Shown: piece by piece, positions 2,218-21,224 of the stretch | Position numbering within the stretch: position 1 is the first letter of the stretch | How the letters are laid out: each line of letters opens with the position of its first letter | Made by a program: the position numbers and the translations under genes | The notes under the pieces: model-generated | Told to the model about the DNA's origin: nothing | The model's input: the letters and a program-made list of their open reading frames with translations, nothing else | Database searches by the model: none | Virus record (IMG/VR): IMGVR_UViG_3300007541_000195 | Span: 1 to 25,236 of that record | Direction: 5' to 3' (one strand) | From: a virus | DNA length: 25,236 bases

Positions 2218-2221
2218 ATAA
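2213..2221 (+). promoter_or_regulatory. Late promoter box AATAAATAA
   Basis: AATAAATAA overlaps the stop codon of the 70-aa gene and lies 17 nt before ATG 2239, the same spacing as other copies. A weak 5-bp inverted repeat (ATAAT 2218-2222 / ATTAT 2236-2240) reaches the start codon. Confidence 0.6.
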
Positions 2222-2238
2222 TAAAAAATTAGGCGATT

Positions 2239-4434: not shown

Positions 4435-4440
4435 ATTATT

Positions 4441-6408: not shown

Positions 6409-6435
6409 TTATAGGAACACCGATTATTTATGCTA

Positions 6436-6474
6436 ATTCTAAGATAAATAAACTAAAATAAATCATCGTAGAAT
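6436..6474 (+). promoter_or_regulatory. Late promoter GATAAATAA inside a start-codon inverted repeat
   Basis: The late box lies at 6443-6451, 21 nt before ATG 6473. ATTCTA (6436-6441), just upstream of the box, is complementary to TAGAAT (6469-6474), which includes the A and T of the start codon. The stem is short and A/T-rich, but the arrangement repeats at other late promoters here. Confidence 0.6.
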
Positions 6475-8065
6475 GACTCAATATATGCAAAAAATACTAG
6501 AAGGCGTCAAAGCAAATACTGCGATTATGTCCGAACCTCTAGTAAAGATGCTAGTCGAATCGACTGATAAATCAATAGCATTGGGAGAGAATCTGCATTA
6601 TGTATACCTCCAATTTAGAAATGGACTATTTCAAATAAATGAAAAAATTGAGTCGGTCGAATTAGATTCTATCGTTTCTCAAATCAAGATAAACGAAGAT
6701 TCTTTAGATTCTAAAATCGATAGAATCGCTAGATCTGCAAATCTATCAAGTCGTCTTGAGATTATTAGAGAATCAAGCGCCTATTTGAATCCAGTAGTTC
6801 AAACTAAAACTTCTGAATTTGAGTCACATGTAAATAAAGGCATTCCTGATTTTGCATTATGCGAATCATTCGTTAATGTATTTAGCAATTTCACGTACGA
6901 TAAATCAATAAAAACTCAAGTAGAAGAAGTTAAAATGTTCATAAATGAGAACAAATCAACAACATTAATGCTTAATGCAATTTATCAAATGGCAGGCATT
7001 AATTCTAACGTATATGAGTCAGTTATTGAAGATCTTAAAACGATGTTAGTTAATGAAAGTTATTCAGCTAACATTCTTAAGCTTAAATATGGAAATACTG
7101 TTCCAGTCGTTAGCGAACTAATCGATCAATTACAAATCAATGAGTCGGCGAAGTCACATAACTTTAATCTAGGATCGGGCAATCATGATACAAATGTTGC
7201 AAATTTAATCGTACCTTCTCTTAAGATAAACGAAGGAGTGATTTTATATGTCAATGATCGCTTTTTATCCATTCAAGAGTCTAACTCACTTAGCGGAAAT
7301 GAAGTTAAAGTTCACGTCGATGAAAATTTCAAAATTGCAGACATTGATCCAGAATACGTTCGCAACAAATACAATTCTTTTTATCAAATTTGCGAATCAT
7401 ATTTTCATCTAGGATTCAAAAGAAGCTCTGATGGACTTGGCGTAGAGTCTAGCAACATTAGAAACCTTAAATTGGGCTTGAAATTGAACGAAGAAAACGC
7501 GTTAGATTTTTATGTAAATGACACGAAGATCGGAGATATTTCACAGGCAACTACACAAATTCATGAGTCTATTTCTCTACAGCCGACTAAAATCAAGGAG
7601 ATGGTAAATCATCTCTTAGAAAATTCAGGTGCCATCTATAATATTGAATTCATTAAAGAAGTTTGGAATGATCGAATTCTTAAAGAATCTATGATTTTTG
7701 ATCTAAATGGAACCTATTACGTTTGTGAAAAATTAAATCCTGTTGAGACTGAATGGAATAAGAAAACTCCAGTTGAGCTCTATGAATATTTTAAAGTTAA
7801 CTATCAATATGATATTCGACCGGCTCTTGGAGAGAAGCTTACAACTGATGAGCAACGAATCAAACATATTTCTGAACGTCAGACGCAGACTCTTGCAAAC
7901 ATTGAGAAATTAGAACTTTCGATCAAAAAGCTTGATGAAGCTTGCGCAAACTCAACAATCGACAAGGAGTATCGATCTCAGCTTGAAGAATTAAGAGAAT
8001 CACTAAGCCACTCTATAAATCAATTAAGAGACGAATACATTAGCCTTGATCTAATGAAGAAATAA
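6473..8065 (+). CDS. Putative prohead core / multi-site protease substrate (530 aa)
   Basis: No sequence family recognised. The protein carries a striking series of [hydrophobic]-x-E|[S/N/G] motifs at 13-39-residue spacing: MLVE29, QINE57, KINE75, IIRE100, ALCE131, FINE159, NVYE182, LVNE195, QINE224, KINE254, SIQE269, QICE308, KLNE340, QIHE365, ILKE405 and ELRE509. T4 gp21-type prohead protease cuts after Glu in [L/I]-x-E contexts, and the T4 gp22 scaffold shows a similar density of such sites. I infer a scaffold or core protein cut into peptides at maturation. Residues about 455-525 are a coiled coil. It is expressed from its own late promoter and followed by a terminator. A repetitive structural protein not processed at these sites is the alternative. 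Confidence 0.6.
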   Translation: MTQYMQKILEGVKANTAIMSEPLVKMLVESTDKSIALGENLHYVYLQFRNGLFQINEKIESVELDSIVSQIKINEDSLDSKIDRIARSANLSSRLEIIRESSAYLNPVVQTKTSEFESHVNKGIPDFALCESFVNVFSNFTYDKSIKTQVEEVKMFINENKSTTLMLNAIYQMAGINSNVYESVIEDLKTMLVNESYSANILKLKYGNTVPVVSELIDQLQINESAKSHNFNLGSGNHDTNVANLIVPSLKINEGVILYVNDRFLSIQESNSLSGNEVKVHVDENFKIADIDPEYVRNKYNSFYQICESYFHLGFKRSSDGLGVESSNIRNLKLGLKLNEENALDFYVNDTKIGDISQATTQIHESISLQPTKIKEMVNHLLENSGAIYNIEFIKEVWNDRILKESMIFDLNGTYYVCEKLNPVETEWNKKTPVELYEYFKVNYQYDIRPALGEKLTTDEQRIKHISERQTQTLANIEKLELSIKKLDEACANSTIDKEYRSQLEELRESLSHSINQLRDEYISLDLMKK

Positions 8066-8088
8066 TAAAACCAACTAATTCTTTAAAT

Positions 8089-8115
8089 AAAGCGACATTT
8101 TTTTGTCGCTTTTTT
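8089..8115 (+). terminator. Rho-independent terminator
   Basis: AAAGCGACA and TGTCGCTTT form a 7-9-bp stem around a T-rich loop, followed by a T run. It sits 24 nt after the 530-aa gene and closes the structural block. Confidence 0.9.
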
Positions 8116-8135
8116 AATTTTAAGAGAATTCATAG

Positions 8136-8141
8136 TATAAT
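8136..8141 (+). promoter_or_regulatory. Promoter -10-like element TATAAT
   Basis: CATAGTATAATTACC lies after the terminator and 35 nt before ATG 8176. AGTATAA-type boxes recur after other terminators or gene ends in this window, suggesting host-polymerase promoters. No convincing -35 is visible. Confidence 0.5.
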
Positions 8142-8175
8142 TACCATACAATAACTTTTTAAAAATTCACGCTAG

Positions 8176-8430
8176 ATGGAACAAATCAAAGTAGGTCCTA
8201 TTCAGACCGCTCCAAAGAATGCTGAAGTGACTCAGCTGATTCGTAGCCAAATCAACAAAATGAAGGTTGGCCAATTTTTCAAAGTCCATGGAGTTGACCG
8301 TCCGACTGTAAATTCATTACGAGCTTCGATCTCGTATTACAGCAAGAGCGACAATTTTGCAGTAACCACCAGGTTCAATTCGGCCGACTCATCAATGAGT
8401 ATTTACCGAACTCGAAAAAACTTAAAGTAA
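8176..8430 (+). CDS. Small hypothetical protein (84 aa)
   Basis: A single-gene unit between two terminators, with its own promoter-like element. The sequence has a helical N-terminal half with a VGQFFKVHGV stretch and a C-terminal part (SISYYSKSDNFAVTT...SIYRTRK) suggestive of two or three strands. I recall similar small proteins in large marine T4-like phages but cannot name the family. Basic overall, no Cys, no membrane segment. Possibly nucleic-acid binding. Confidence 0.75.
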   Translation: MEQIKVGPIQTAPKNAEVTQLIRSQINKMKVGQFFKVHGVDRPTVNSLRASISYYSKSDNFAVTTRFNSADSSMSIYRTRKNLK

Positions 8431-8439
8431 TTTCCAACA

Positions 8440-8479
8440 CTAGAAAAGCCACCACTAAAACTGGTGGCTTTTTTCTAGT
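8440..8479. terminator. Strong terminator hairpin with extended arms
   Basis: The core stem AGCCACCA/TGGTGGCT is followed by TTTTTT. Outside it, CTAGAAA and TTTCTAG extend the pairing, so the whole element is nearly symmetrical and may terminate in both directions. The next promoter box starts at its 3' edge. Confidence 0.9.
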
Positions 8480-8486
8480 ATAAAAT
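8479..8486 (+). promoter_or_regulatory. Promoter -10-like element TATAAAAT
   Basis: CTAGTATAAAATATAAG follows the terminator directly, 17 nt before ATG 8504. It probably drives the accessory operon starting with the methyltransferase. Confidence 0.5.
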
Positions 8487-8503
8487 ATAAGAAAATCATT
8501 AAA

Positions 8504-9319
8504 ATGGATACACGAATTGACTTTGAAACTGCCAAAAAATTCGATCAGCTTGAAAAAGTAGATTGGCCTACAAGATACGGCAATTTTCAATTTTACGTAA
8601 GAAAGGGTCTCACCGAAGTTCAATATAACGTCGGTCAAAATTTTTCAAGAGGACCAAACAGCGGTGAGTATATTTACCCATTTGTTTCTCCTAGAATCGG
8701 GCCTGCAATGAATTTGAACGAAGTTCTAAATCATGAAGATACGTGGATGGATATTGGTGGCCATCTAGGACTGTTTGCAATTCGTTTTGCTGCTCAATTT
8801 CCAAAAATCAAAAGAATCGTTTCATACGAAGCTCTTCCACATAATGTATCATTTGCGGTTGAAAATCTCAAACTGAATGCAGTTGATGACCGTTGCGAAA
8901 TGGTACAAAAAGCTATCGTGCCTAATCATGAACCTGAGATTGAATTCTTTATTTCATCGGATTCAGGAAAGCACTCAATTCTTCCGGTTCGAGGCCGTGA
9001 TAATATCAAGGTACCTGCAGTAAATATCAATGATGCTATCAAAGAAAATGGCGTAACTGCGATTAAGATGGATGTTGAGGGGGCCGAATACGATCTAATC
9101 AAAGCAGTTGATGATTGGTCAAACATTCGTGTTGCGATCATTGAATGGCATTTCAACGCAATGAAGTCGCTTAAGCCTGGTGTAGAGAACTCACGAGTGA
9201 ACATGTTCAATGAGATCATGGACATCATGAAAGCTAACTTTGACACCATTCGAGTTATTCCAGGTATAGAGCACAAGAAGACGTTTATCACTCACTTTGC
9301 GGCTATTAAAACAAAATGA
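8504..9319 (+). CDS. FkbM-family SAM-dependent methyltransferase
   Basis: Class I methyltransferase of the FkbM type, enzymes that usually O-methylate sugars or similar hydroxyl groups. The SAM-binding motif MDIGGHLG is at 82-89, the acidic second-strand motif YEALPHN at 108-114, and the family hallmark IKMDVEGAE at 187-195. At 271 aa it has the usual length plus an N-terminal extension of about 75 residues. It starts at ATG 8504 after a terminator-promoter junction, and its stop overlaps the start of the DNA glycosylase (ATGA). A putative glycosyltransferase follows three genes later, so methylation of a glycan (on virion, cell surface or hypermodified DNA) is the most natural guess. The substrate cannot be read from sequence. 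Confidence 0.88.
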   Translation: MDTRIDFETAKKFDQLEKVDWPTRYGNFQFYVRKGLTEVQYNVGQNFSRGPNSGEYIYPFVSPRIGPAMNLNEVLNHEDTWMDIGGHLGLFAIRFAAQFPKIKRIVSYEALPHNVSFAVENLKLNAVDDRCEMVQKAIVPNHEPEIEFFISSDSGKHSILPVRGRDNIKVPAVNINDAIKENGVTAIKMDVEGAEYDLIKAVDDWSNIRVAIIEWHFNAMKSLKPGVENSRVNMFNEIMDIMKANFDTIRVIPGIEHKKTFITHFAAIKTK

Positions 9320-9756
9320 TTGTAACTGAAAGCCCATATAGACTTTTGCAAGAGATATACAACGAGCATCCATGGAGGATGCTCGTTTGTTGTATAATGT
9401 TAAATTGCACAAATCGAAAACAAGTAGATCGTGTGCGATTTAATTTCTTTGAAAAATATCCATGCCCAGTGAAAGCCGTGCTTGCGGATACGTCTGAGAT
9501 GGCCGAGGTCATTGAACATCTTGGATTTAAAACAAAAAGGACAGCTACCTTAATTCGATTTTCAGAAGAATTCCTAAATAAGGATTGGACTGAGCCAATT
9601 GAACTGCATGGGATAGGAAAATATGGGCAGGACTCTTGGGAGATATTTCAAAAAAGTAATCTTGCGGTGGAACCAACTGATGGCGTGTTAAAGAAATATT
9701 TAGAATGGGCAAAACAACAATCTGTGTGTCCAATTAAAATAACTGATTTTGCATGA
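9316..9756 (+). CDS. MBD4-like HhH-GPD DNA glycosylase
   Basis: Single-domain DNA glycosylase closely resembling the C-terminal catalytic domain of eukaryotic MBD4 (mismatch T/U glycosylase). Shared landmarks are HPWRML near 18-23, LNCT (29-32, like LNRT in MBD4), the helix-hairpin-helix ELHGIGKYG (96-104) and the catalytic-Asp region VEPTDGVLKKY with Asp122 in the expected place. There is no C-terminal four-Cys iron-sulfur motif as in endonuclease III or MutY. At 146 aa it is about the size of the bare catalytic domain. It presumably removes T, U or a modified pyrimidine from DNA. Start overlaps the methyltransferase stop and stop overlaps the next small gene. The N-terminal coding region contains an 11-bp perfect inverted repeat. 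Confidence 0.85.
   Translation: MIVTESPYRLLQEIYNEHPWRMLVCCIMLNCTNRKQVDRVRFNFFEKYPCPVKAVLADTSEMAEVIEHLGFKTKRTATLIRFSEEFLNKDWTEPIELHGIGKYGQDSWEIFQKSNLAVEPTDGVLKKYLEWAKQQSVCPIKITDFA
9361..9387 (+). repeat. 11-bp perfect inverted repeat inside the glycosylase gene
   Basis: AACGAGCATCC (9361-9371) and GGATGCTCGTT (9377-9387) flank a 5-nt loop and are followed by TTGTTGT and a TATAAT box at 9393-9398. It looks like an intragenic terminator or attenuator hairpin next to a promoter-like element. Confidence 0.7.
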
Positions 9757-9926
9757 GAGATGCAACAAATATTAAAGACCTAAAATTTGAAGTGAATGGT
9801 CATCCAGCTAAAGCAAGCGATGTATGGCTCTCTCAAAATGGAGAATACTTCGTTTCATTAAACTACAACAAACTTTGGCTGAACGTGCATATTAATGATC
9901 TTAAAAATTACATAAAAGAAAAATGA
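9753..9926 (+). CDS. Small hypothetical protein (57 aa)
   Basis: This short frame has ATGA overlaps with both neighbours (ATG 9753 within the glycosylase stop; stop 9924-9926 overlapping the next ATG at 9923), which strongly supports it as a real gene in a translationally coupled chain. It starts MRDATNIKDLKFEVNGHPAK and ends NDLKNYIKEK, with a central Tyr/Trp-rich beta-like part. No family recognised. Confidence 0.7.
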   Translation: MRDATNIKDLKFEVNGHPAKASDVWLSQNGEYFVSLNYNKLWLNVHINDLKNYIKEK

Positions 9927-10219
9927 ATAAGTACTACGCTCGAAAAAAGGATGGTGAGATTCTTGTTAAAAATGATAATGGCACATATAGCTTCATTAGC
10001 TCTCTAAAACTGAATAGTATTTCTCAATACCCAGCAGAAGCTATCGTGAATAATCCTAATTTTATGCCGATACTTGAATCAGATTTTCCTACGATGGAAG
10101 CGCGTAGTGAACAATATTACGCGTTCTTATCTTGGCATACTCGGAGCGATGGCCATGGTGGAATAAAGGGAGGAACCTTTGAGGAATGGTTAAAACTAAC
10201 TAATCAGACTAAAATATAA
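9923..10219 (+). CDS. Small hypothetical protein (98 aa)
   Basis: Starts by ATGA overlap with the 57-aa gene. The N-terminus (YYARKKDGEILVKNDNGTYSF) looks like a small beta hairpin. The C-terminus contains an aromatic and Gly/His-rich stretch (WHTRSDGHGGIKGGTFEEWL). No recognised domain. Part of the methyltransferase-glycosylase-glycosyltransferase operon, so possibly an accessory factor. Confidence 0.7.
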   Translation: MNKYYARKKDGEILVKNDNGTYSFISSLKLNSISQYPAEAIVNNPNFMPILESDFPTMEARSEQYYAFLSWHTRSDGHGGIKGGTFEEWLKLTNQTKI

Positions 10220-10225
10220 GAGACT

Positions 10226-11308
10226 ATGAAGGCACTATACGCATATTTCGGTTTACTTGAACTACATACTATTGACTCTCCAGGACACTCTTTATACCAG
10301 CTTGGATTAATGGATCAACTTGCCGTTCAATTCTCAATAAAAAAGTTCGATTTCTATTCATATTATCCAAAGGAATTAATCGAAGACCATATCGCATCGA
10401 ACATCTTTCCTTCTACTCAGCTGGGAGAAATATTTGAAGAGACTCGAAATGAGTTAATCGAGCAATATGCTCTTGATCTAAATAATGTATTAGATAACGT
10501 CGTTGCCAAGAAATACGATAAACTTTTCCTAAAGGCTAGATTTAGAAATCTTTCTACACTATCTAAAAAATGGAAAGATGCGCTGGCTTTTGAAACGATA
10601 ATCGATACTGCAGTCGGGGCTGGCTATTCAAAGGATCAAATAATCATATTGGATACAGATCTTTCATTGACTGAAAAATTTGTTAATGACTATCGAGAAA
10701 AGATAACTATTTTGACTCCGTCGATTGATATTCCTGGAATATCTGAACGCTTTCTTAAAAAGTGCGTCGATTCTAATTTAAGTAACTACGAAACGCTTAA
10801 AAATAGAAAAGGATTAGGAATAGTATTTTATGGCAACATAAATACTTCTTCATACAAGTCAGGTAACTCAAAAACTAAACTCTTACCTGAGATCTTATTT
10901 CAACTTAGCGGAGATGGCGTGTTGGGTCAACTTCTTGGAGAATTAACGATCATTTCTAAACCCGCCGATGCTCTTGGTTTCATGTCAGAATCTTCAAAAA
11001 ACATAAACAGGTGCGATCGGCCTCGAATATGGGATTGTCTTGAAAGGGATACCGTGATGCTTAATATCACCAAAGACAAGTACGACACGACTAAATTTAT
11101 TCCAGCTAGAATATATGAAGCCTTAATATTTGGCCTTATTCCAGTTTCATATAAGTTTGATTGGCTGTGTCCGGCTTTTTCATTCAATAATACTGAAGAC
11201 TTGGTCGAGATATTGAAATATCTTGATGAATGTTCAATTGACGACCTTAAGGGTGCATATACTCATTTCGTTAATAGTTATTTAGAGCACAGCTTGCGAG
11301 ATAAATAA
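10226..11308 (+). CDS. Probable GT-B-type glycosyltransferase
   Basis: Likely glycosyltransferase. The C-terminal part (about 270-345) carries the pattern of GT-B nucleotide-sugar-binding domains: MLNITKDKYDTTKFIPARIYEALIFGLIPVSYK-type sequence at 278-310, with Glu298 at the usual acidic position and G303-LIPVS following, then the downstream FSFNNTEDLVEIL element. The N-terminal half (1-200) is consistent with the acceptor domain but shows no diagnostic motif. At 360 aa the length is normal. Last gene of the accessory operon, and its final codons GAT AAA TAA are also the next late promoter. Acceptor unknown: DNA base, virion glycan and host surface are all possible. A CgeB-like assignment is a reasonable alternative. 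Confidence 0.6.
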   Translation: MKALYAYFGLLELHTIDSPGHSLYQLGLMDQLAVQFSIKKFDFYSYYPKELIEDHIASNIFPSTQLGEIFEETRNELIEQYALDLNNVLDNVVAKKYDKLFLKARFRNLSTLSKKWKDALAFETIIDTAVGAGYSKDQIIILDTDLSLTEKFVNDYREKITILTPSIDIPGISERFLKKCVDSNLSNYETLKNRKGLGIVFYGNINTSSYKSGNSKTKLLPEILFQLSGDGVLGQLLGELTIISKPADALGFMSESSKNINRCDRPRIWDCLERDTVMLNITKDKYDTTKFIPARIYEALIFGLIPVSYKFDWLCPAFSFNNTEDLVEILKYLDECSIDDLKGAYTHFVNSYLEHSLRDK

Positions 11309-11325
11309 TAAGAAAGCACTCGCAA
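11294..11325 (+). promoter_or_regulatory. Late promoter GATAAATAA in a start-sequestering inverted repeat
   Basis: The late box (11300-11308) overlaps the preceding gene's Asp-Lys-stop codons. TTGCGAG (11294-11300) pairs perfectly with CTCGCAA (11319-11325), which ends one base before ATG 11327. The 18-nt loop holds the promoter, so RNA initiated at the late promoter would lack the left arm. Confidence 0.75.
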
Positions 11326-11326
11326 C

Positions 11327-13198
11327 ATGCGCCACATCGCTAGTTATGAAACGAATGAGCAATCTGTCGCTCTAATCAATACATATTTCTCAGAATATTC
11401 CCAAATTTTTGAGAATGCAGTATCCATTCCAGCGATACGCGCTGAATTGAGATTTATTGATAAAATTGAACAGTGTTTACCTAAGGATGAAGTATTTGAC
11501 TTCCACTTTGATACTATACTTAATAAAGGAGGAAAAGCAATCTCAGAATATTACTCGAGCCTTTCTGGTAAAAACTCCCAGTTCATTAATGATATCAAAA
11601 AGCATTTTACTAGCGATCAACTAGGGATCCTCAATGAGGCTATTTCTGAATTAAAGGAAGTATTACATGGTCTAACCTTTAATCAATTAAATGAACAGGT
11701 GGCCGGGCAGGCATCCGACATCTTATCGGATATTCGACGTCGTTTACCTGAATTAAGCAAAACGCCACCATCCATTAAAGGTTCTGCAACAAATGATGCT
11801 ATTTCTACTCCAGAAGAATTCGATAAAGCTATTGCTGGCGAAGGATACACTCCTCAGGAGGGAGGAGTTCTTAACTTTCTAAAGCAGCTTTGGAACCTTC
11901 TTTCTGAGGACGGCTCTCCACTTGGGATACTCCATCTTGTTCTTGATTTAGTTGGCCTATTTGATTTTGTTGGAATCGGCGTCATTGCAGATGTTTTAAA
12001 TGCGATCATCTACTTCATTCGAGCCGGTGTTGATGACAAAGAACGTCGAGGCGAATTTATGTTACTTGGAGCAATATCATTGATTGCTGGAGTTATTCCA
12101 GTTGCAGGCGATGTCCTTAAGGCTCTAAAACCTGCTGCTCGAGGAATGTCAAAAGTAATGATCGAAACCATTGCACATGGAAGCAAAGGGGGAGTAGAAG
12201 TTCTTGCAAAACTTCCACCTAAAGAAGCCGCAAAAAGCCTGCAAGGTTTACGATTCATCGGTAAAAATATCGGACCTGCTTTTGCAAAGGCTACTAATCT
12301 ATTAAGTAAATTTTTCGATACGTTTTTAGCAAAAGTAGTCGGATGGGTCCCATTCATCGGTAAACCGCTAAAATCATTTTTTGAAGGTATCGGAAAGACT
12401 TTTTCCAAAATGGCAGATACTTTTGATAACTTTGGAAAAAACTTTGCTAAGACTGAGGCCGAATATATCGAAATGACAATCAAGGGCGCCAATAAGTCTA
12501 TCGAAAAGGCAGTCAAGGCCGGTGGAAAGCTTGAGGTAGACGCTGCTGGAAAATCAGTAGAGGTCTTTAGTAAATCGGGTAGATCCTTAGGCACATATCC
12601 AGTTGATGTATTAACAGATCCAAAGGTATGGAATAAAAAGGCTCCAGGTATGTGGAAAATGGACGCACCTACTCCTACCCAGGCGGCTAGATATACGAAC
12701 GGTATAATTAATGGCGCGCCGATTCTATCAATGGGCCTTGCTAAACTTGCCGGTAAAAATATAAAACGAGTGGCCAGATTGACATCCTTTGTTGGAAAAC
12801 AAATCATTAAATTAACGACTGGAGACGATTGGCAGTCGGCCGGTCATACTGAATCTGAAGCTGAATATTATGGAAGTGCCGCTTTTTGTGAATGGATTCA
12901 TAATGAGCTTAAAAAAGAAAAAGAGGAAACTGGAGCAACTTATGTTCCTGCTCTAATTCTAGATGGAAATGATAAAGAGACATTCGATCGTGTGGTCAAA
13001 TATCAAAATAATTATGCAAAATTATTTGGCCAACCGACGATTATTCCAGTGATCAAAGAAAAAGCCGACGCTAAGACTCAAAAAGAATTTGATGAATTCA
13101 TGGATGCCATTAAAAATGGAGCAAAGTCCAATGAAAACAAAAATGTGTCTGAATCGCTGCGACTCAGACACATAATCTCATTTTCAGATTTTAAGTAA
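11327..13198 (+). CDS. Large hydrophobic protein with pre-toxin-like helices and tag-like termini (623 aa)
   Basis: No close family recognised. Residues about 200-265 form a hydrophobic helical block (LVGLFDFVGIGVIADVLNAI, then ISLIAGVIPVAGDVLKAL) that strongly resembles the hydrophobic pre-toxin segments found before toxin domains in polymorphic toxins. More Gly/Ala/Lys amphipathic helices follow to about 400, then a globular C-terminal region (about 400-600). The N-terminus (MRHIASYETNE|QS) and last 14 residues (after VSE609, ending RHIISFSDFK) both resemble prohead-targeting tags. I infer an internal head protein possibly injected with DNA and inserting into membranes. Expressed from a late promoter, it ends 2 nt from the convergent 529-aa gene. 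A toxin or pore activity is inference. Confidence 0.65.
   Translation: MRHIASYETNEQSVALINTYFSEYSQIFENAVSIPAIRAELRFIDKIEQCLPKDEVFDFHFDTILNKGGKAISEYYSSLSGKNSQFINDIKKHFTSDQLGILNEAISELKEVLHGLTFNQLNEQVAGQASDILSDIRRRLPELSKTPPSIKGSATNDAISTPEEFDKAIAGEGYTPQEGGVLNFLKQLWNLLSEDGSPLGILHLVLDLVGLFDFVGIGVIADVLNAIIYFIRAGVDDKERRGEFMLLGAISLIAGVIPVAGDVLKALKPAARGMSKVMIETIAHGSKGGVEVLAKLPPKEAAKSLQGLRFIGKNIGPAFAKATNLLSKFFDTFLAKVVGWVPFIGKPLKSFFEGIGKTFSKMADTFDNFGKNFAKTEAEYIEMTIKGANKSIEKAVKAGGKLEVDAAGKSVEVFSKSGRSLGTYPVDVLTDPKVWNKKAPGMWKMDAPTPTQAARYTNGIINGAPILSMGLAKLAGKNIKRVARLTSFVGKQIIKLTTGDDWQSAGHTESEAEYYGSAAFCEWIHNELKKEKEETGATYVPALILDGNDKETFDRVVKYQNNYAKLFGQPTIIPVIKEKADAKTQKEFDEFMDAIKNGAKSNENKNVSESLRLRHIISFSDFK
13144..13172. 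terminator. Hairpin inside the 3' end of the 623-aa gene at the convergent junction
   Basis: TGTGTCTGA (13144-13152) and TCAGACACA (13164-13172) form a perfect 9-bp stem. Inside it TCG/CGA gives three more pairs after one mismatch. It lies 26 nt before two convergent stop codons and may limit read-through between them, although no T run follows. Confidence 0.5.
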
Positions 13199-13200
13199 TC

Positions 13201-14790
13201 TTATTTCTCCTTTTTAATTCTTTCTCTTATTTTCTTGATAATGGGTTTATATTCGTTACCTTCTCCGGTACATGCCGTCCAGTAGGCCTTTGCGAATATT
13301 GAAATATCTCCTCCAAGCTCATCGTTAATCACATCATAAACGTTCATGTTAGCATCGATCTTTCGATATTCAACGCTGAGATCCTTGGCTGCAGTTGGAA
13401 CAAGGCCCGTGATGAGAAGAGCAATCATACACTCTTCTTGATCTGTGGTATTTCCAAATATACCGCTACCGTTTTTTAAATTAAGAAGTAATGAAGCTAG
13501 GTCTTGAGAAACCATGTTTTTCATGTTTTCTATCTGTTTTGTAGGGTCCGCTGCGAGAGTATCATACCATCCCATCATTTCAGCGCCCTTTGCACCAAGA
13601 CCGGCAGATGGATCACCGGTGCCTGTAACTGCACCGCTTTGACCTATATCGCTTACCTTTTTGGCAGCAAGAAGCCCAGCTGCGGATAACGTCTTTTGTG
13701 CTCTTTGTGGATCCACGAGTTGTATAAACTTATCATGACCGACTGTGAAAACATTCTTAGTTCCGCCCATGGCCTGTAGTTTAACTCCCTGTTCAGTGAC
13801 GCCTAGCACCTTATGATTAATGTACTTTGAACCGTGCTTGTATTTAATAACCTTTCCTGTCTTAATACCTGCTTTTCCTAATGATGATAATCGAGTCACA
13901 GCCGGCAATTTATTAAATTTGTTAGCGAACGGTATCAGTTTTGAAACTGCTCGAGTCGCCCTACCGAGTGCAGCCGACCCCTTTGCAGCGGCGACTCCGG
14001 CTTTAGTTGATTTTGCAGCCTTAGCCGCCGCGTCAGCAATTTTTGCTCCTCTTAAACCTGAAGCAAATGCAGCGGATCCACCGACTGTAACTAGTATAAG
14101 TGCAACATCTCCAAGTATGGTCCACGGATTCAATCCCCTCCATACAGATTGTTCAATGTTTTGTCTAAATGCATTAAGCGCAGTTACCTCAGCATATCCG
14201 GAAAATTCTTCTTCTAAGAAATCTTTGATAGACTGTCCAAATCTTTCTGAAAAAACTTCAGAAAGTTTTTCAAAATACATTCCTGGATCTACTCCCTTTT
14301 CCGCAGCAATCTCAGTAATTGCTCCCAAGACGCCTACGATCGTTTCTTCATCAGTACCTGCATCTTCACCGCCTCCACTAAAGAAGCTTCCGATCGATCC
14401 GATTATTCCACGTTCATTCCAAGCAGTTCCTTCTCCTCCTGATTTTAAAATACCTGCAGCAACTTCAAGATCAATATCTCCCCATAAGAACTCCTCATTC
14501 ATAACCCACATAAAAAACTTTGGATTATTTGCATCGCTCTTATCTATTTTTACATAGATTTCATCTTGTTCAGGGATTCCATATTTTTCTTTGTCGATAT
14601 CTAATGATTTGAACGTATATTCTCCGTCTCTATACTTTGAGAATTTCTCAGCAAGATCTAAAATTAAATCATCATCGGATAGATAATCCTTAAGTCTTTC
14701 TTGAAGATCTTGTGATATCATGGCAGATTGTTCATTAACTGAAAGAACTGTCATTAAATTATGATTTTTATTGGCAAACATCTGTCCCAT
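13201..14790 (-). CDS. Large hydrophobic protein, probable internal virion protein (529 aa)
   Basis: No family recognised. The layout parallels the convergent 623-aa protein: a tag-like N-terminus (TVLSVNE20|QS), an acidic globular part (about 30-210), a strongly hydrophobic segment (about 223-245, ILGDVALILVTVGGSAAF), a long Ala/Lys/Gly amphipathic region (250-310), and a small beta domain (about 310-365). The start at 14790 lies 2 nt after the stop of the minus-strand 359-aa gene, so the two form one unit from the late promoter at 15889-15897. VNE|QS closely matches TNE|QS of the 623-aa protein. A packaged, membrane-active ejection protein is inferred. A tape-measure role is less likely because of its small size. 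Confidence 0.65.
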   Translation of the reverse strand: MGQMFANKNHNLMTVLSVNEQSAMISQDLQERLKDYLSDDDLILDLAEKFSKYRDGEYTFKSLDIDKEKYGIPEQDEIYVKIDKSDANNPKFFMWVMNEEFLWGDIDLEVAAGILKSGGEGTAWNERGIIGSIGSFFSGGGEDAGTDEETIVGVLGAITEIAAEKGVDPGMYFEKLSEVFSERFGQSIKDFLEEEFSGYAEVTALNAFRQNIEQSVWRGLNPWTILGDVALILVTVGGSAAFASGLRGAKIADAAAKAAKSTKAGVAAAKGSAALGRATRAVSKLIPFANKFNKLPAVTRLSSLGKAGIKTGKVIKYKHGSKYINHKVLGVTEQGVKLQAMGGTKNVFTVGHDKFIQLVDPQRAQKTLSAAGLLAAKKVSDIGQSGAVTGTGDPSAGLGAKGAEMMGWYDTLAADPTKQIENMKNMVSQDLASLLLNLKNGSGIFGNTTDQEECMIALLITGLVPTAAKDLSVEYRKIDANMNVYDVINDELGGDISIFAKAYWTACTGEGNEYKPIIKKIRERIKKEK

Positions 14791-14792
14791 TG

Positions 14793-15872
14793 TTATTTTT
14801 CTCCACCTAATGTTTTTTGAATAGCTTTTCTTAATTCTCCCATTGCGTACTCGCGATCGTCAGTATCGGACGCACGTGAAGCAACTGATTCTGAGTCGTC
14901 TTGTGGAAATATTGAAGTTCCGTCTTTATAGAAAAGCATTCTTCTTAAATTATCAGAATTGATTATAGTAGACTTATATTCGTCTTCAAATGTTTTTATT
15001 TGCTGATCTCGAAAATCTTTATCTGTAAACATTCGATGAATAAATTTACGATCAGTGGCATTGTATATAGTACCATCTGTATATAAATTCGCATTCACTT
15101 TCTTTGAAATTGCAGTGTCACGTGATGTATTATCTAAAGCCGTGTCCCAAAAAATAGTATATTCACCATTTTCTCCAGAGGACGTGTGCGTAATCTCTCC
15201 ATTTGGATCACTACCGTCTTGAGTAGTTGCCTTTAGTTTATCATCAGCCGTGAACTCCATCAAGTATATTTTACTATTAGTTCGCATAGTATAAAGGAAC
15301 TTTTTACCAATTACGCTTGAATCTTCTATTTCAGTTGGAGCAGCAGTGGGCTCAGTAACGGTCGACTCGGGATCTTCAAGTTGAGTATTAGTAAGAAGAG
15401 TTTGAGCTAGGGAAAGAGCAGTTGCCGCATCTTTCGATGCTCCCTTAAATTTATTTTCATCTACAAATCTTTCTGATTGTGCGATTGATGGATATAGAGG
15501 CTTATTTTCTGCATCCAGCCTAGGCTCAACCGAAAATTGTATCTTTTGGACTTCTCTGGCTCCTCCGGATTTATCTTTACGTACAAGATAAACGATTAAG
15601 CTTTTTTCAAAAAATGCAGGAGAGAGCTGTCCAATTTGCGAAGTAAATGCCGGTTCTGAATTAAAGAATGCAATTATTGCTTCTTCTCCAGCTGGGGTCA
15701 ACTTTGAATTAGAATCTAGAACATCTAAATCATTGACTATTTTGATTATGAATTTTTCCTTCGATTGTACTCTATATTTAACTTTTTGCGTTTTACCGTT
15801 GACAGTCAATATCTCTTTTCCTCGAGCAACTGCCTCGTTCAAGCGGCTCCATGAACTAAAAGATCGAATCAT
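14793..15872 (-). CDS. Tagged probable internal head protein (359 aa)
   Basis: No family recognised. The frame is open to 15947, but ATG 15872 is chosen because it lies 16 nt after a perfect late-promoter box and gives an N-terminus, MIRSFSSWSRLNE|A, that matches the prohead-targeting pattern with cleavage after Glu13, the same position as in the Nudix protein. The rest has a possible N-terminal globular domain (about 15-130), an Ala/Thr/Pro-Glu linker (about 165-195) and a beta-rich domain (about 197-330) with many Asp/Thr. First gene of the minus-strand pair. Function unknown, with virion interior as the inferred location. Confidence 0.7.
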   Translation of the reverse strand: MIRSFSSWSRLNEAVARGKEILTVNGKTQKVKYRVQSKEKFIIKIVNDLDVLDSNSKLTPAGEEAIIAFFNSEPAFTSQIGQLSPAFFEKSLIVYLVRKDKSGGAREVQKIQFSVEPRLDAENKPLYPSIAQSERFVDENKFKGASKDAATALSLAQTLLTNTQLEDPESTVTEPTAAPTEIEDSSVIGKKFLYTMRTNSKIYLMEFTADDKLKATTQDGSDPNGEITHTSSGENGEYTIFWDTALDNTSRDTAISKKVNANLYTDGTIYNATDRKFIHRMFTDKDFRDQQIKTFEDEYKSTIINSDNLRRMLFYKDGTSIFPQDDSESVASRASDTDDREYAMGELRKAIQKTLGGEK

Positions 15873-15888
15873 TTGAATAGCTTTATTT

Positions 15889-15911
15889 TTATTTATCTGA
15901 TCGATAAATAA
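15889..15911. promoter_or_regulatory. Divergent palindromic pair of late promoters
   Basis: Minus-strand GATAAATAA (15897 to 15889) and plus-strand GATAAATAA (15903 to 15911) sit back to back, 5 bp apart, forming one imperfect palindrome. They lie 16 nt and 19 nt before the ATGs at 15872 (minus) and 15931 (plus). Confidence 0.8.
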
Positions 15912-15930
15912 CAAAAAGCTTGATTCTAAT

Positions 15931-16767
15931 ATGCTTAAGGGCTTCAATGATTACATGAAACAAAGGTCAACCGATCCGGCAGTATGGGAAAAAATGGTGG
16001 TCCTAGCAAGTCCAACCTTTGAATCAGACATCTTTATATCTGTTAAAAATGAATCTCAGCTATTTGAATATTCTGCCGACCTTCCAATTGTTGTGTGGGG
16101 AGATTTCAATATAAGTCAATCTGCAATAAACGAGAATAAATTTTCGATTTTCAATCTGCCAAGAATAGATTTAAAAGCTATTTTAGAACAGGAGCATGAG
16201 CTTGGACCCAAATATGTAACCGATCGTTCACAAGTTAAAAAAATGAAATTTCCAATAATCGCAGTCGATTCTGAAGGAGAAGAAGAATTTAAAACGGTCG
16301 GAAAATTTAAAAAGTCAGAACGGGCTTTTTCAAAATTTAAGAGTAAACCGGTGATCCGGACCAGGTTTAATGTGATTTGTCACCGAGATGAACCAATTCA
16401 TCTTCAAGAAAAAATAAATGGAATCGGTTTTGATATTAACCTTAATTCATTCAATAATCATGAAAAAATCACTTCGATAGTTGAAAAATTAGGGAAAATG
16501 ATTCCGTTGGATTTCTATCAAGCGACTATTATTGAATCAGATGGAGAATATTACCTTGAGTCGTTAGATAATTCCTCTGAATTGAGTCCATCACAGACTC
16601 TTTCAATATACGAAAGAGCATATGAGACTCATTACGCTAGAAAAATACCTAAAGCTATTCAAACTAAATTATTCGAAACTCACGTAAAAAAGTATTATCA
16701 AAAACGATATTATGATTCGCTGTTAATTAAACCCAAAAATTCGATTGATTTCAAAAAATATGTGTAA
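15931..16767 (+). CDS. Hypothetical protein, possibly ATP-grasp-like (278 aa)
   Basis: I do not firmly recognise it. The order of motifs (KKMKFPIIAVDSEG, EEEFKTVGKFKKSERAF, VIRTRFNVI, HLQEKINGIGFDINL, YYLESLDNS) loosely recalls ATP-grasp enzymes, with Lys in the early strands and an acidic late strand, but key residues cannot be assigned with confidence. The C-terminus is helical and rich in Tyr/Lys. The N-terminus, MLKGFNDYMKQ, resembles the shared tag peptide (F-N-x-[FY]) but lacks a clear cleavage Glu. It starts from the divergent late promoter, and its stop overlaps the Nudix start (TAATG). Confidence 0.65.
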   Translation: MLKGFNDYMKQRSTDPAVWEKMVVLASPTFESDIFISVKNESQLFEYSADLPIVVWGDFNISQSAINENKFSIFNLPRIDLKAILEQEHELGPKYVTDRSQVKKMKFPIIAVDSEGEEEFKTVGKFKKSERAFSKFKSKPVIRTRFNVICHRDEPIHLQEKINGIGFDINLNSFNNHEKITSIVEKLGKMIPLDFYQATIIESDGEYYLESLDNSSELSPSQTLSIYERAYETHYARKIPKAIQTKLFETHVKKYYQKRYYDSLLIKPKNSIDFKKYV

Positions 16768-17270
16768 TGAAAAAAATAATTACTTTTAACGAATTTATGA
16801 ATGAGGCTTGGGAAGACATTGATTTTTCTGTGAAAAGAAAAGCAGCCGGCGTCGCAATAATTTGGGAAGGCCAGATTTTACTCGTACATCCTACTGGAGC
16901 AAGCTGGCAAAAAAGCTCATTTGGAATACCTAAAGGAGGAATTAATGACGGTGAAGATGTTCTTGAAGCAGCTATTCGCGAACTTAGAGAAGAGACTGGA
17001 ATCGTACTTAATTCTACTGAGCTTGATCCTGAACCATTAGTCGCAAACTCATATAAACCAAATGGGTCTCTCGATCGCCAGCTAATATATTTTACTAAAG
17101 CTATACGATCGCTTGAGGAGATAGGTCTAGCTTCGACAACTGTTCCTGAGCATCAACTACAACTCGAAGAAATAGATTGGGCCGGTTTTGTGCCAATCGA
17201 TCGTGCATATCCTAAAATGCACCGGTCTCAATTAATTATATTGGATCGCGCACGATATATAAAAATATAA
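16767..17270 (+). CDS. Nudix hydrolase with prohead-targeting-like N-terminus
   Basis: Nudix enzyme (hydrolyses nucleoside diphosphates linked to another moiety). The complete Nudix box G-x5-E-x7-REL-x-EE-x-G-I is at residues 57-79, with catalytic Glu75/Glu76. The core begins near residue 27 (AAGVAIIW). The first 14 residues, MKKIITFNEFMNE|A, do not belong to the fold and closely parallel the T4 internal protein III tag (YQEFIAE|A). Processing would release a mature enzyme starting at Ala14. It is translationally coupled to the 278-aa gene and shares the late promoter. The late, packaged context points to a virion-delivered enzyme rather than an early metabolic one. The substrate (NAD-, ADP-ribose- or cap-type) is not readable. 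Confidence 0.92.
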   Translation: MKKIITFNEFMNEAWEDIDFSVKRKAAGVAIIWEGQILLVHPTGASWQKSSFGIPKGGINDGEDVLEAAIRELREETGIVLNSTELDPEPLVANSYKPNGSLDRQLIYFTKAIRSLEEIGLASTTVPEHQLQLEEIDWAGFVPIDRAYPKMHRSQLIILDRARYIKI

Positions 17271-17282
17271 AGATATTAATCT

Positions 17283-18407
17283 ATGGGCAAGATATTGAAT
17301 TACTTAGTTTGGAAAAAGTTGCATGAACAGGCCTCAGCCACTGATACTGAAAGAGCAAGAACTATTCTAGGTCAAGAAATTGATCGATTCTTAAATCAGT
17401 CTGATAACTCGACGGCCACTCGCCCTGAGACACCGATTGCAGATCAACTCAAGAAGCCGGCCGTAGATAAACCTAAGGCTCCGACCACAGATCAACCTAA
17501 GGATACTCTAAAGGATCAAGAAATATTAAATCAGCTTGAAATTGGAACTCTAGTATTAAAAAGTGGAATGAGCGGCAGAGCGGTTGAACTCATCCAAAAT
17601 AAGTTAAAAGACGCCGGGTATCTAACTACTCCAGTTAATGGAGAATATGATGCGGCTACGTACACGGCTGTCACAAATTTTCAAAAAGAAAAAGGGTTAA
17701 AAACGGATGGAGTCTTTGGTAAAAACACATATGCTGCGCTATATGGAAAAAAACCAGAAACTGAATCTCAACCGACTACAACAGTTGATGGAAAATTTAC
17801 TAGCCCTAGATATTTTAAAGAGGCGCTATTACCTAAGGCCAGTGCAGTGATACAAAAACTCAATTTGCAAGTTCCACCAGTTGCCGTTCTTGCGCAATGG
17901 TCTCTAGAATCTGCAAATGGCTCTAGCCCAGCAAGTTCATATAATTATGCCGGGTTAAAGGCAATGGGCCCACTTAAAAATAAGAAAGGAAAGGCCGTTC
18001 TTGCCGAAGAGCGGTATACTCCGCAGCATATTGAAAAAATGAAAGCTGGTAAAACCACTGAAGAGTTGGTAAAAGTTCTAGGCAAAGATGATACTATCCG
18101 CAAAAGAGGTCGTGATGTAACGATCGATCAGTGGTACGGAAAGGACGCCTGGCAAAAAGCCAAGGATGTCGGTAAGCAGTGGTGCCAAGTAAAAACCTAT
18201 TTTGCTTCATTTGATAACTATGATGATTTCGTTAATGGCTATCTTAAAGTTGTAGGAGGAGACCGCTATCGTGAAACCATTAAGTCTGCAAAAACGGTTG
18301 AAGACTTTGCACTCGGCCTTGCGAAAAATGGATATGCAACAGCATCTCCAACAAAATATGCTCAGGCAGTTGTGAGTAAATCTAAGGAGCTTGAAAACCT
18401 AGCATAA
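17283..18407 (+). CDS. Peptidoglycan-binding / glucosaminidase-type lysin with tag-like N-terminus
   Basis: Cell-wall hydrolase with three parts. Residues 1-16 (MGKILNYLVWKKLHE|Q) are a tag-like peptide. About 45-80 is a Pro/Lys/Asp linker with short repeats (DKPKAPTTDQPKD). A PG_binding_1 domain (about 96-154) has the RAVELIQNKL and DGVFGKNTYAAL signatures. A C-terminal glucosaminidase/FlgJ-like domain (about 172-374) has LAQWSLESANGSS with probable catalytic Glu209 and the downstream YNYAGLKA. It likely cleaves N-acetylglucosaminyl bonds of the host wall. No signal peptide or membrane segment. Given its neighbours it may be packaged in the head or tail and act at infection, though a conventional endolysin released by a holin cannot be ruled out. 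Confidence 0.85.
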   Translation: MGKILNYLVWKKLHEQASATDTERARTILGQEIDRFLNQSDNSTATRPETPIADQLKKPAVDKPKAPTTDQPKDTLKDQEILNQLEIGTLVLKSGMSGRAVELIQNKLKDAGYLTTPVNGEYDAATYTAVTNFQKEKGLKTDGVFGKNTYAALYGKKPETESQPTTTVDGKFTSPRYFKEALLPKASAVIQKLNLQVPPVAVLAQWSLESANGSSPASSYNYAGLKAMGPLKNKKGKAVLAEERYTPQHIEKMKAGKTTEELVKVLGKDDTIRKRGRDVTIDQWYGKDAWQKAKDVGKQWCQVKTYFASFDNYDDFVNGYLKVVGGDRYRETIKSAKTVEDFALGLAKNGYATASPTKYAQAVVSKSKELENLA

Positions 18408-18440
18408 TCGACTAAGTACAAGATTGAAAAATCATATCTA

Positions 18441-18983
18441 ATGGATCAAGAAAAAATTGAAGTGATCGATACTAATCTTGAAGAAGCGTCTGCTGAGCTT
18501 CTAGAAACTGTTGAATCGACTGAAGATCAATCCCTAGCTGAAAGTTTGCCTAAGGCTCCTGAGGAACTTCTTTCGACTCTTACCCAATCTCGAATGGGAC
18601 AGTTTGGCGTAAAAATTTCTCATTCTGATCTTAAGTATATCAAAAACGTCATTTCCAACAAGCTCGAATGGACGGGTCCAAATGAGGCATATTTGACTAT
18701 CATTTCTACTCTAACTATCGATAACGCCTTGGGAGAAATTGCTGAGCTTACTAAAGATCAAAATGAGCCGGTTCAGATTAAATTACCTGCAGCGACTATT
18801 GAGTCTATTGATTTCTTCTTAAATAAAGTTTCTGGAAAGGGTATTCAGGCGGCTCAACGGCTTTTTTCAGCAGTAATGCAGTTTAGACAGCCAATTGGAG
18901 CAATTAAGAAATTGGACAATGAGATCGCTGCTCTTCAGGAAGAGATAAAACTTGCAAAAAGCAAAGAAAGTACAGATAAATAA
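18441..18983 (+). CDS. Acidic helical protein, possible head assembly factor (180 aa)
   Basis: No family recognised. The N-terminal 45 residues are very acidic and disordered (Glu/Ser/Thr-rich), the middle (about 60-150) is a compact helical region, and the end (about 155-180) is a Lys/Glu coiled coil. There is no tag-like peptide. Its final codons GAT AAA TAA form the late promoter of the next gene. Position between packaged proteins and the acidic core protein suggests a scaffold, chaperone or core partner. Confidence 0.65.
   Translation: MDQEKIEVIDTNLEEASAELLETVESTEDQSLAESLPKAPEELLSTLTQSRMGQFGVKISHSDLKYIKNVISNKLEWTGPNEAYLTIISTLTIDNALGEIAELTKDQNEPVQIKLPAATIESIDFFLNKVSGKGIQAAQRLFSAVMQFRQPIGAIKKLDNEIAALQEEIKLAKSKESTDK
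18975..18983 (+). promoter_or_regulatory. Late promoter GATAAATAA overlapping a stop codon
   Basis: The box coincides with the Asp-Lys-stop codons of the 180-aa gene and lies 18 nt before ATG 19002. A direct repeat GAAAGTAC flanks this region (18967-18974 and 19005-19012). No start-sequestering hairpin is evident here. Confidence 0.75.
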
Positions 18984-19001
18984 TAAAAAACTATTTTCAA
19001 A

Positions 19002-19361
19002 ATGAAAGTACATAACTTTGCAGGGTTCATGAAAGCTCGAAAGAGAGTAAACGAATCTGAATTAGGCGACATGCCTGAAAACGAATACGGAGCATATCCT
19101 GAGCAAACAATGGATTTTGGAGCAAATCCTGAAGAAGGAGAAGAGCTTGAGGATCTAGAGAACGATGAGCTAGAGAACGATGAGCTAGAGAATGAAGAGG
19201 AAGAAGTAACCATGGAAGATCTTAAAGCCATGATTGAGGATCTTACTGAAAGGATTGAAGCTCTGGAAGGCGGCGATGAAGAAGCCGAGGAAGGCGAAGA
19301 AGCCGAGGAAGGCGAAGAAGCTGAAGAAGGCGAAGAAGCTGAAGAAGGCGAAGAAGTCTAA
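19002..19361 (+). CDS. Very acidic prohead core-like protein with Glu repeats (119 aa)
   Basis: Resembles the T4 gp67-type prohead core protein in character: small, with an extremely acidic Glu-rich tail. The N-terminus MKVHNFAGFMKARKRVNE|S is basic and hydrophobic and ends in a candidate protease site at Glu18. Then come two LENDE units plus a LENEE unit (15-bp DNA period), a short coiled coil (MEDLKAMIEDLTERIEALEG), and four EEAEEG units (18-bp DNA period) to the end. In T4, proteolysis of such a protein yields acidic internal peptides that stay with the DNA. Similarity is in layout and composition, so homology is not proven. Confidence 0.7.
   Translation: MKVHNFAGFMKARKRVNESELGDMPENEYGAYPEQTMDFGANPEEGEELEDLENDELENDELENEEEEVTMEDLKAMIEDLTERIEALEGGDEEAEEGEEAEEGEEAEEGEEAEEGEEV
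19154..19198 (+). repeat. Three 15-bp tandem units
   Basis: CTAGAGAACGATGAG at 19154 and 19169 and a diverged copy at 19184 encode LENDE, LENDE and LENEE. Confidence 0.85.
19278..19349 (+). repeat. Four 18-bp tandem units
   Basis: Units at 19278, 19296, 19314 and 19332 encode EEAEEG. The first two are identical (GCC GAG), and the last two are identical to each other with GCT GAA at the same positions, a pattern of stepwise duplication. Confidence 0.9.
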
Positions 19362-19931: not shown

Positions 19932-21224
19932 ATGCTAATCCGCGATAATTTTGAAAAACTTCGACTTTTTGTCGAAGCAATGAACGAATCAAATTCAACA
20001 AATCATAAGGTAAAAGTATTAGAAGAATATACGCAAGATTTATTTATTGCAGGCGTTCTACATTATACTTACACTCCCTATAAGCAATATGGAGTCACCT
20101 CAAAGAATCTTGAAAAAAGGGGCGACCTTGTAGGCTTGCCATTTACTCCAAACATCACATTTTTTGAATTACTTGATAAATTAACTGATCGCGTCCTTAC
20201 TGGACATTCTGCGATACAGGCAGTAAATCGTTTTATCCAAGATAATGCTGAATACAAGGACCTGATTTATCAGGTGATTGATCGAAATCTTGAGACTCGA
20301 GCAACGACTACTTTAATTAACCGAGTCATTCCCAATCTTATCCCCACGTTTAATGTTGCCCTGGCACATGATATCACAAAGGTCAACGGGATAGATCCTC
20401 TCGATGGTACCTGGTATTGCTCAAGAAAACTGGACGGGATACGATGTATCGCAATAATTAGGGACGGAAAAATCAAGTTCTTTTCAAGAAATGGAAAAGA
20501 GTTTGAAACGTTAGGAGTCGTTCAAGATCGAATAGAGGCTCTTGGATTAACTGATTGTGTTCTTGATGGAGAAATATGTCTCATGAAAGAAGATGGATCA
20601 GATGACTTCCAGGGAATCTTGAAAGAGATTCAGCGAAAGAATCACACCATTAAAAATCCAAGATACTGGATATTCGATGTTCTCACTCTAGAAGAATTTG
20701 ATTCTACTTCAGGCGAAGTCCCATTAGCTGATCGACTGGCTCGACTCAATATCGGAAAAGATCCAGTGCTTGCATCGCTTCCACAATATCTTATTGAAAC
20801 TGAAGACGACTTTGAAAAATTCAAAGAAAGAGCAAAGTCCTTTGGGTGGGAGGGACTTATTCTTCGTCAGAATATTGGTTATGAAGGCAAGCGGTCTAAA
20901 GGCATGCTAAAGATTAAAGAATTCTTCGATGCTGAATATACGGTAGAATCAGTAATCATGGAAGACCAGCGAATCATAGTCGATGGTCAAGAAAAGGTTG
21001 AAGAGGTGTTAAGCGCTGTGATAATCAGACATAAGGGCGATCCGGTTCGAGTGGGCAGCGGATTTAACCTTAACGAACGCCGAAAATATTATGCAGATCC
21101 AAATCTTATTTTAGGCAAAACGATCACGGTCCAATATTTTGAGGAGACCGTCGATCAGGAAGGACGAAATTCATTACGCTTTCCAGTATTTAAGGTAAAC
21201 CATGGAGAATCTCGTAGTATATAA
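19932..21224 (+). CDS. ATP-dependent DNA ligase
   Basis: Nick-sealing polynucleotide ligase with all nucleotidyltransferase motifs: I KLDG with adenylated Lys166, III FFSRNGKEF (183-191), DGE (212-214), IIIa YWIFDVL (245-251), IV EGLILR (307-312) and V MLKIK (325-329), followed by an OB-fold (about 333-430) ending FPVFKVNHGES. Residues 1-140 form a helical N-terminal domain. At 430 aa it is a little shorter than T4 gp30 (487 aa). It is preceded by a promoter-like element rather than a late box, suggesting earlier expression for replication and repair. The enzyme class is certain. Whether it is the direct counterpart of T4 gene 30 is inferred. Confidence 0.95.
   Translation: MLIRDNFEKLRLFVEAMNESNSTNHKVKVLEEYTQDLFIAGVLHYTYTPYKQYGVTSKNLEKRGDLVGLPFTPNITFFELLDKLTDRVLTGHSAIQAVNRFIQDNAEYKDLIYQVIDRNLETRATTTLINRVIPNLIPTFNVALAHDITKVNGIDPLDGTWYCSRKLDGIRCIAIIRDGKIKFFSRNGKEFETLGVVQDRIEALGLTDCVLDGEICLMKEDGSDDFQGILKEIQRKNHTIKNPRYWIFDVLTLEEFDSTSGEVPLADRLARLNIGKDPVLASLPQYLIETEDDFEKFKERAKSFGWEGLILRQNIGYEGKRSKGMLKIKEFFDAEYTVESVIMEDQRIIVDGQEKVEEVLSAVIIRHKGDPVRVGSGFNLNERRKYYADPNLILGKTITVQYFEETVDQEGRNSLRFPVFKVNHGESRSI

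Follow-up and report, generated by a model that had tools for sequence, protein, structure and literature searches.

Short N-terminal tags on diverse phage proteins probably form an expanded T4-type capsid-targeting system that carries enzymes

In an uncultured tailed phage and in several other phages, we found a short peptide of 10–20 amino acids at the N-terminus of otherwise unrelated proteins, enzymes among them. From their sequences, these tags most likely represent a modular capsid-targeting system of the T4 type, greatly expanded and carrying enzymes. The window, i.e., the whole stretch of DNA analyzed, is a 25,236-base fragment of this phage from an IMG/VR record. Tail-side genes lie at 1–8 kb. 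A cluster at 10–22 kb encodes a Nudix hydrolase, a peptidoglycan-binding glucosaminidase, a DNA ligase and several proteins without known family, and an FkbM-like methyltransferase is also encoded in the window. No prohead protease, scaffold or capsid genes were recognized within these 25 kb.

Two arrangements of the tag can be distinguished (slashes mark predicted cleavage sites). In the A-type, [FY]xx[FYW][LIVMF]xE, two aromatic residues at positions i and i+3 are followed by an aliphatic residue and then Glu; in the W-type, [FY]xxWxx[LIVM]xE, the Glu lies two residues later. The Nudix hydrolase (ORF 16767–17270, plus strand; PF00293 domain at residues 23–114) begins with the A-type tag MKKIITFNEFMNE/A (16767–16805), an arrangement also found in its relatives. 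The glucosaminidase (ORF 17283–18407, plus strand; peptidoglycan-binding and GH73 domains) begins with the W-type tag MGKILNYLVWKKLHE/Q (17283–17327). On the minus strand, a 359-aa protein (ORF 14793–15872) starts with MIRSFSSWSRLNE/A (15834–15872) and a 529-aa protein (ORF 13201–14790) with a degenerate tag ending in MTVLSVNE/Q (14731–14790). An acidic 119-aa protein (ORF 19002–19361, plus strand), gp67-like in character, carries MKVHNFAGFMKARKRVNE/S (19002–19055), in which the Glu sits farther downstream of the aromatic pair. A 278-aa protein (ORF 15931–16767, plus strand) begins with LKGFNDYM (15931–15957), which has the aromatic pair without Glu and is probably a tag remnant or the targeting part alone; its orthologs start with MKLKKFNEYAAF and MKLKNFTDYAAY.

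All six peptides quoted in an earlier, sequence-only reading of this DNA are present, and five of the starts, with their tags, were read directly at 16767, 17283, 15872 (minus), 14790 (minus) and 19002. That reading had assigned the set to 16767–19361, an interval that covers only the Nudix hydrolase, the glucosaminidase, an untagged 180-aa protein (18441–18983, plus strand) that is a co-conserved neighbor inside the cluster, and the acidic protein; the tag-bearing span runs from 479 to 19055. A further candidate, FVEAMNE/S in the DNA ligase (19932–21224), was rejected: the ligase family profile begins already at residue 16, and the motif is common to all ligase orthologs and part of the protein itself.

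Direct searches of viral contigs with the Nudix, glucosaminidase and 529-aa proteins yielded no relatives. Entry to them was gained with a conserved 337-aa protein (1005–2018 of the window), and orthologs of the window proteins were collected via synteny. One relative of 207 kb (G008) is colinear with the window and encodes Peptidase_S77, gp23 and Portal_T4. Comparison of orthologs showed conserved N-terminal tags in the Nudix hydrolase, the 359-aa protein, the glucosaminidase locus and the acidic protein. The Nudix alignment comprises the window protein and six orthologs, 48–55% identical to it. In all seven sequences M1, I4, F7 and E13 are invariant, residues 14–26 vary and contain gaps, and invariance resumes at A27, which lies in the enzyme. 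Nudix homologs without a tag begin at the domain itself, e.g., in LR756504. Orthologs of the 359-aa protein keep MIKSFxxWSSLTE/A (e.g., MIKSFDTWSSLTE/A and MIKSFNSWSSLTE/A), and those of the acidic protein keep [MK]xVKNFAGFMKxR..NE/S (e.g., MKVKNFAGFMKSRVNE/S and MRVKNFAGFMKTRTLNE/S).

For the 529-aa and 623-aa proteins the picture is different. In the 529-aa protein V-x-E/Q is invariant in four orthologs, and the aromatic pair is present in orthologs (FYNNYQGAVNE/Q) and absent from the window copy. Orthologs of the 623-aa protein start with MKYVSPYGTTPES, MKYIAPYGAQPEP and MHSFSEYLHHTSP; the quoted ASYETNE/QS is not conserved among them, and that example therefore fails. AlphaFold predictions for these two proteins are poor (mean pLDDT 43 for the 623-aa and 41 for the 529-aa protein). 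The idea of a tag on several unrelated proteins thus holds for the four conserved cases, was dropped for the N-terminus of the 623-aa protein and applies to the 529-aa protein in degenerate form. A pair of aromatic residues, presumably for docking, combined with a processing site also describes the tag better than the LNE/VNE/MNE/TNE set first proposed.

The skeleton [FY]xx[FYW][LIVMF]xE reproduces the positions that experiments have mapped in the capsid-targeting sequence (CTS) of T4 IPIII, MKTYQEFIAE/A, in which Y4 and F7 serve targeting and I8 and E10 processing (PMC9026906); we confirmed this peptide in the T4 IPII and IPIII sequences. Like the CTS of IPI, IPII and IPIII, the tags are short, putative N-terminal propeptides on unrelated proteins, often with a small P1′ residue, and they share the order of aromatic residues at 4 and 7, an aliphatic residue at 8 and Glu at 10.

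Such a simple skeleton could in principle arise by chance, as AT-rich gene starts yield K, I, F, N and E near the N-terminus. N-termini are indeed rich in K, I and N in the LR-series genomes and in the window, and one of the six originally quoted examples is not conserved. We scanned the first 25 residues of each protein for the A-type (pattern A) and W-type (pattern B) expressions, with non-overlapping internal 25-residue windows from the same proteins as control. Both patterns were drawn up with the ORF list of G008 in view and then left unchanged for the other genomes. In the window, 2 of 31 ORFs matched (0.12 expected, p=0.03), and the 359-aa protein becomes a third match if ATG at 15872 replaces an upstream TTG. 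G008 gave 14 matches among 243 ORFs (1.7 expected, p 1.7e-7), which is not an independent test as the patterns were written after its ORF list was viewed; its many further tags include MRAKNFDQYLNE/V, MEPVKSYSEFVNE/G, MILDFSKWKKLNE/Q, MILDFKGWTRLNE/Q, MSYLLSYQNWAKLNE/Q and MLIKKFSDFVNE/S.

Enrichment was also seen in six further genomes. Matches numbered 12/98 in G009 (0.6 expected, p 2e-8), 23/639 in the 462-kb LR756500 (3.4 expected, p 9e-10; type MKYIKEYEEFLNE/A) and, among the genomes examined later, 27/950 in LR756502 (5.9 expected, p 1.4e-8) and 21/551 in LR756504 (5.8 expected, p 8e-6). In 200-kb samples, we counted 15/239 in the 735-kb LR756501 (0.9 expected, p 2e-10) and 10/253 in LR745206 (1.5 expected, p 4e-5). 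No excess was seen in Lak-B4, read with code 15 (1/427, 1.9 expected), or in Tenacibaculum phage PTm1 (2 vs 2.4 expected), and that in Chryseobacterium phage MA9V-1 was not significant (3 vs 0.8, p 0.075). A prediction recorded in advance, that LR756504 would be enriched and Lak-B4 would not, held on both counts. Across the whole T4 genome, taken as a positive control, the expressions found IPII and IPIII, with 4 matches against 2.0 expected (not significant).

Reversing the motif left 0, 0, 1, 4 and 4 matches in G008, G009, LR756500, LR756502 and LR756504, against 14, 12, 23, 27 and 21 in the forward direction. With the tags removed, the matching proteins of these five genomes fell into 14, 12, 16, 22 and 19 unrelated families, i.e., the tagged bodies are mostly unrelated. 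Unbiased motif searches were positive for LR756500 (score 364 vs 170–194) and G009 (170 vs 123–139); in G008, the score of the unbiased EM search was not above controls. Tags were absent from the loci around gp21 and gp23 in 12 relatives. Topoisomerase IV is among the false positives of the expressions. Given the reversed-motif and internal-window controls, the invariance of the tag across divergent Nudix orthologs and the lack of excess in PTm1 under the identical test, a chance origin is highly improbable.

Relatives keep the tag at the glucosaminidase locus, and the peptidoglycan enzyme behind it is swapped, so that tag and enzyme have recombined. The window copy carries GH73, G002 a VanY peptidase, and G006, G010 and G014 carry GH19, which is weak in G009; in G008 a peptidoglycan-binding domain and a domain without assignment follow the tag. 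Elsewhere, LR756502 has tags on PPK2, on a T4 Rnl1-like RNA ligase and on a DHH protein, and the tagged proteins of LR756500 include an LRR protein and a DUF2201 metallopeptidase/VWA protein. In a DUF3008 protein the tag is internal, and most tagged proteins have no recognized domain. PPK2 and RNA ligase are unexpected as capsid cargo.

The tagged proteins might instead be core or scaffold accessories for head assembly that are chopped or lost, rather than delivered cargo. The acidic 119-aa protein, with its resemblance to T4 gp67, would suit such a role, and T4 IPIII influences head assembly (PMC9026906). Against this stand the intact enzyme domains behind the tags (Nudix, GH73, VanY, GH19, PPK2 and RNA ligase), and the exchange of enzymes behind a constant tag suggests that their activity is the point. 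We consider this alternative unlikely.

The sequence-only reading had assumed a gp21-like protease of the phage's own. G008 and the other phage records examined do encode a gp21-family protease; it is absent from the 25-kb window fragment. Comparison with the relatives, together with the skeleton match to T4, strongly supports the core of the proposal. The G008 Peptidase_S77 (PF03420) scored 41.7 bits against a Pfam cut-off of 27, and its motifs HPP and SSRAAG align with T4 H85 and S140; across these phages the motifs read HP[PK] (H85) and SSRxxG (S140). In G008 and seven relatives the protease is fused to a scaffold with 11 tandem 14-residue repeats, hxYxxY[ILV]AE, and the fusions have about 11–14 repeats each across the G008 group and in the huge phages. 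Repeat-array scaffolds with the tag skeleton occur in the G008 group, LR756500, LR756502, LR756504, LR756501 and LR745206. Among the matches listed in the ‘phages’ collection, LR756500, LR756502, LR756504, LR756501/503 and LR745206 matched the fusion along most of the repeat region.

Of all internal matches to strict pattern A in the G008 proteome, 8 of 22 fall in the protease-scaffold (P 3e-11), as do 11 of 58 in LR756502 (P 2e-16); the fusions of LR756504, LR756501 and LR745206 hold 11, 14 and 11 matches. The LR756500 fusion has two strict and seven loose repeats and keeps the periodicity more loosely. The fusion is also the protein densest in [LIVMF]xE in G008, LR756502, MA9V-1 and PTm1 (P 3e-6 to 1e-13); in LR756500, one of the five phages tested, no such excess was seen. 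The gp23 gene adjoins the protease and encodes a conserved TPLFE/[QNS] near residue 54. We also considered the 530-aa protein of the window (6473–8065) as a chopped core protein and rejected it, as its site density is weak (P 4e-3) and few sites are kept in orthologs.

Phages lacking the repeats (PTm1, Lak and MA9V-1) have no significant tag set. The protease tree is poorly resolved, so this association of repeats and tags may reflect joint inheritance in one clade. A full profile (PSSM) built from the scaffold repeats did not retrieve the N-terminal tags, and hence only a minimal skeleton is common to both.

These data also bear on whether the tags sort proteins to a non-capsid site, such as a compartment of the infected cell or a membrane, with the Glu left uncleaved. 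Housekeeping-like enzymes such as PPK2, RNA ligase and the DHH protein are among those tagged, as such sorting might predict. We regard it as quite unlikely, since the skeleton agrees with the T4 CTS position by position, is concentrated in the fused prohead protease and scaffold, and forms tag sets that co-occur with the repeat scaffold and are absent from Lak and PTm1.

Similar elements are found at C-termini. The 623-aa protein (ORF 11327–13198, plus strand) ends in SESLRLRHIISFSDFK (13148–13195), E/S followed by hxFxxF, and this element is kept in orthologs (NNESRTVLSFKDFKKV, PNESRILSFSKFIND and KESISHLRYIIPYSKF), most of which have hx[FY]Sx[FY] within a few residues after E/S. A 154-aa protein (ORF 479–943, plus strand) ends in YESQHRALSFSQFLGS (893–940), whose conserved form across about 12 orthologs is IYES..[LM][ST]FxQFINS. 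Both look like versions of the docking pair cut upstream. The 278-aa protein ends in SIDFKKYV (16741–16764, plus strand), and this terminal F/YxxY is conserved in nine orthologs. T4 Alt undergoes C-terminal processing (PMC9026906); we found no description of a C-terminal targeting element in the literature examined.

We suggest that capsid targeting by these tags would proceed as follows. Through the aromatic pair, [FY]xx[FYW] or, in the second type, [FY]xxW, the protein would dock on the prohead core as the core grows. The gp21-like protease of the phage, one polypeptide with the scaffold in these phages, would then cleave [LIVMF]xE behind its Glu and remove the tag, and the enzyme would remain in the head, from which it would be ejected along with the DNA. 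In two or three proteins the docking pair seems to lie at the C-terminus, with the E/S site just upstream. Docking by the pair and cleavage by the fused protease are supported by the skeleton match to T4, the motif-rich fusion, its density of [LIVMF]xE sites and the TPLFE site of gp23, the last two being consistent with cleavage after Glu. As the scaffold repeats have the tag skeleton, the tag may dock like an additional repeat, with cleavage at the corresponding position. Such mimicry of a scaffold repeat by the tag is an attractive idea, though a less certain one. More tentatively, the tag may be a single 14-residue scaffold repeat, so that about 12 acquired codons would build any protein into the core and the cuts that dismantle the scaffold would release the cargo. 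This would be an open plug-in delivery system in the largest known phages, with dozens of enzyme cargoes attached at either terminus.

A capsid-targeting propeptide with a Glu-directed prohead protease is already known from T4 and, in a longer form, from phiKZ and SPN3US (PMC5694885, PMC10052503). The phages described here share with T4 a gp21-family protease and, presumably, its [LI]xE specificity. T4 has a handful of tags, compared to 12 to 27 matches per genome here. Unlike the T4 CTS, the tags are found on enzymes and exist in W-type and conserved C-terminal versions; unlike T4 gp21 and gp22, protease and scaffold are fused and hold tag-like repeats, and T4 gp22 has no 14-residue repeats of this kind. 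In SPN3US and phiKZ, the prohead protease is likewise Glu-directed and propeptides were proposed to target ejection proteins. These propeptides mostly comprise 100–250 residues with A/S-x-E sites, unlike the tags here, and the sections consulted do not describe a short tag common to dozens of proteins (PMC5694885, PMC10052503). In the open-access literature on such tags in jumbo or huge phages, we found only the work on T4 and on SPN3US/phiKZ, and no description of the scale, of enzymes exchanged behind an unchanging tag, of W-type and C-terminal forms or of tag-like repeats in a protease-fused scaffold.

In T4, few internal proteins are tagged, and the literature examined does not resolve what they dock onto in the core; the phages described here provide a concrete model, open to test, of the binding partner of a capsid-targeting sequence. 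The tags provide a list, readable from the genome, of probable injected proteins, comprising the Nudix hydrolase, peptidoglycan hydrolases, RNA ligase, polyphosphate kinase and many unknowns. This list covers uncultured and huge phages, up to a record of 735 kb. A packaged Nudix hydrolase or RNA ligase could immediately counter nucleotide or tRNA damage inflicted by host defenses, and a packaged peptidoglycan hydrolase could work at genome entry. The tag could be used as a rule for annotating counter-defense proteins that act early.

Within the window, a 530-aa protein (6473-8065) is kept in all relatives at an identity of 41-47% and contains eight [LIVM]xE sites, few of which are conserved in position. 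An FkbM-like methyltransferase (window 8504-9756), overlapping an HhH-GPD DNA glycosylase-like ORF, has a homologue in G008, the 207-kb relative colinear with the window. On the minus strand of G008 (194558-195109; L028:4561-5109), a DUF3008 domain is followed at about residue 60 by an internal tag (VLKFNDFVNEQ), and this gene perhaps encodes two proteins split by the protease.

Three proteins unusually dense in [LIVMF]xE, the putative processing-site pattern, were found in Tenacibaculum phage PTm1 (AP019524.1; 65267-66457, P 2e-7, and 171574-172902, P 3e-4) and Chryseobacterium phage MA9V-1 (OR050627.1; 148053-150722, P 1e-5). All three are candidate long propeptides, which the prohead protease would cleave. 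FINEA-type sites occur in two small MA9V-1 proteins adjoining the protease (122538-123347 and 126193-126453) and at the N-terminus of its gp23-like capsid protein (at 130617; VDRWSEFINEAAPK).

In the huge-phage genome LR756500, the tag MKYIKSYENFIFEN is carried by a DUF2201 metallopeptidase plus VWA protein (LR756500.1, 200318-201793); a tagged LRR protein is also encoded there. N-terminal tags were likewise identified in LR756502, another huge-phage genome, on a PPK2 polyphosphate kinase (LR756502.1, 140679-141845; MINNFIKFINEE) and a T4 Rnl1-like RNA ligase (LR756502.1, 491690-492961; MKKLHRYNSFIKES), both of which are possibly packaged enzymes.
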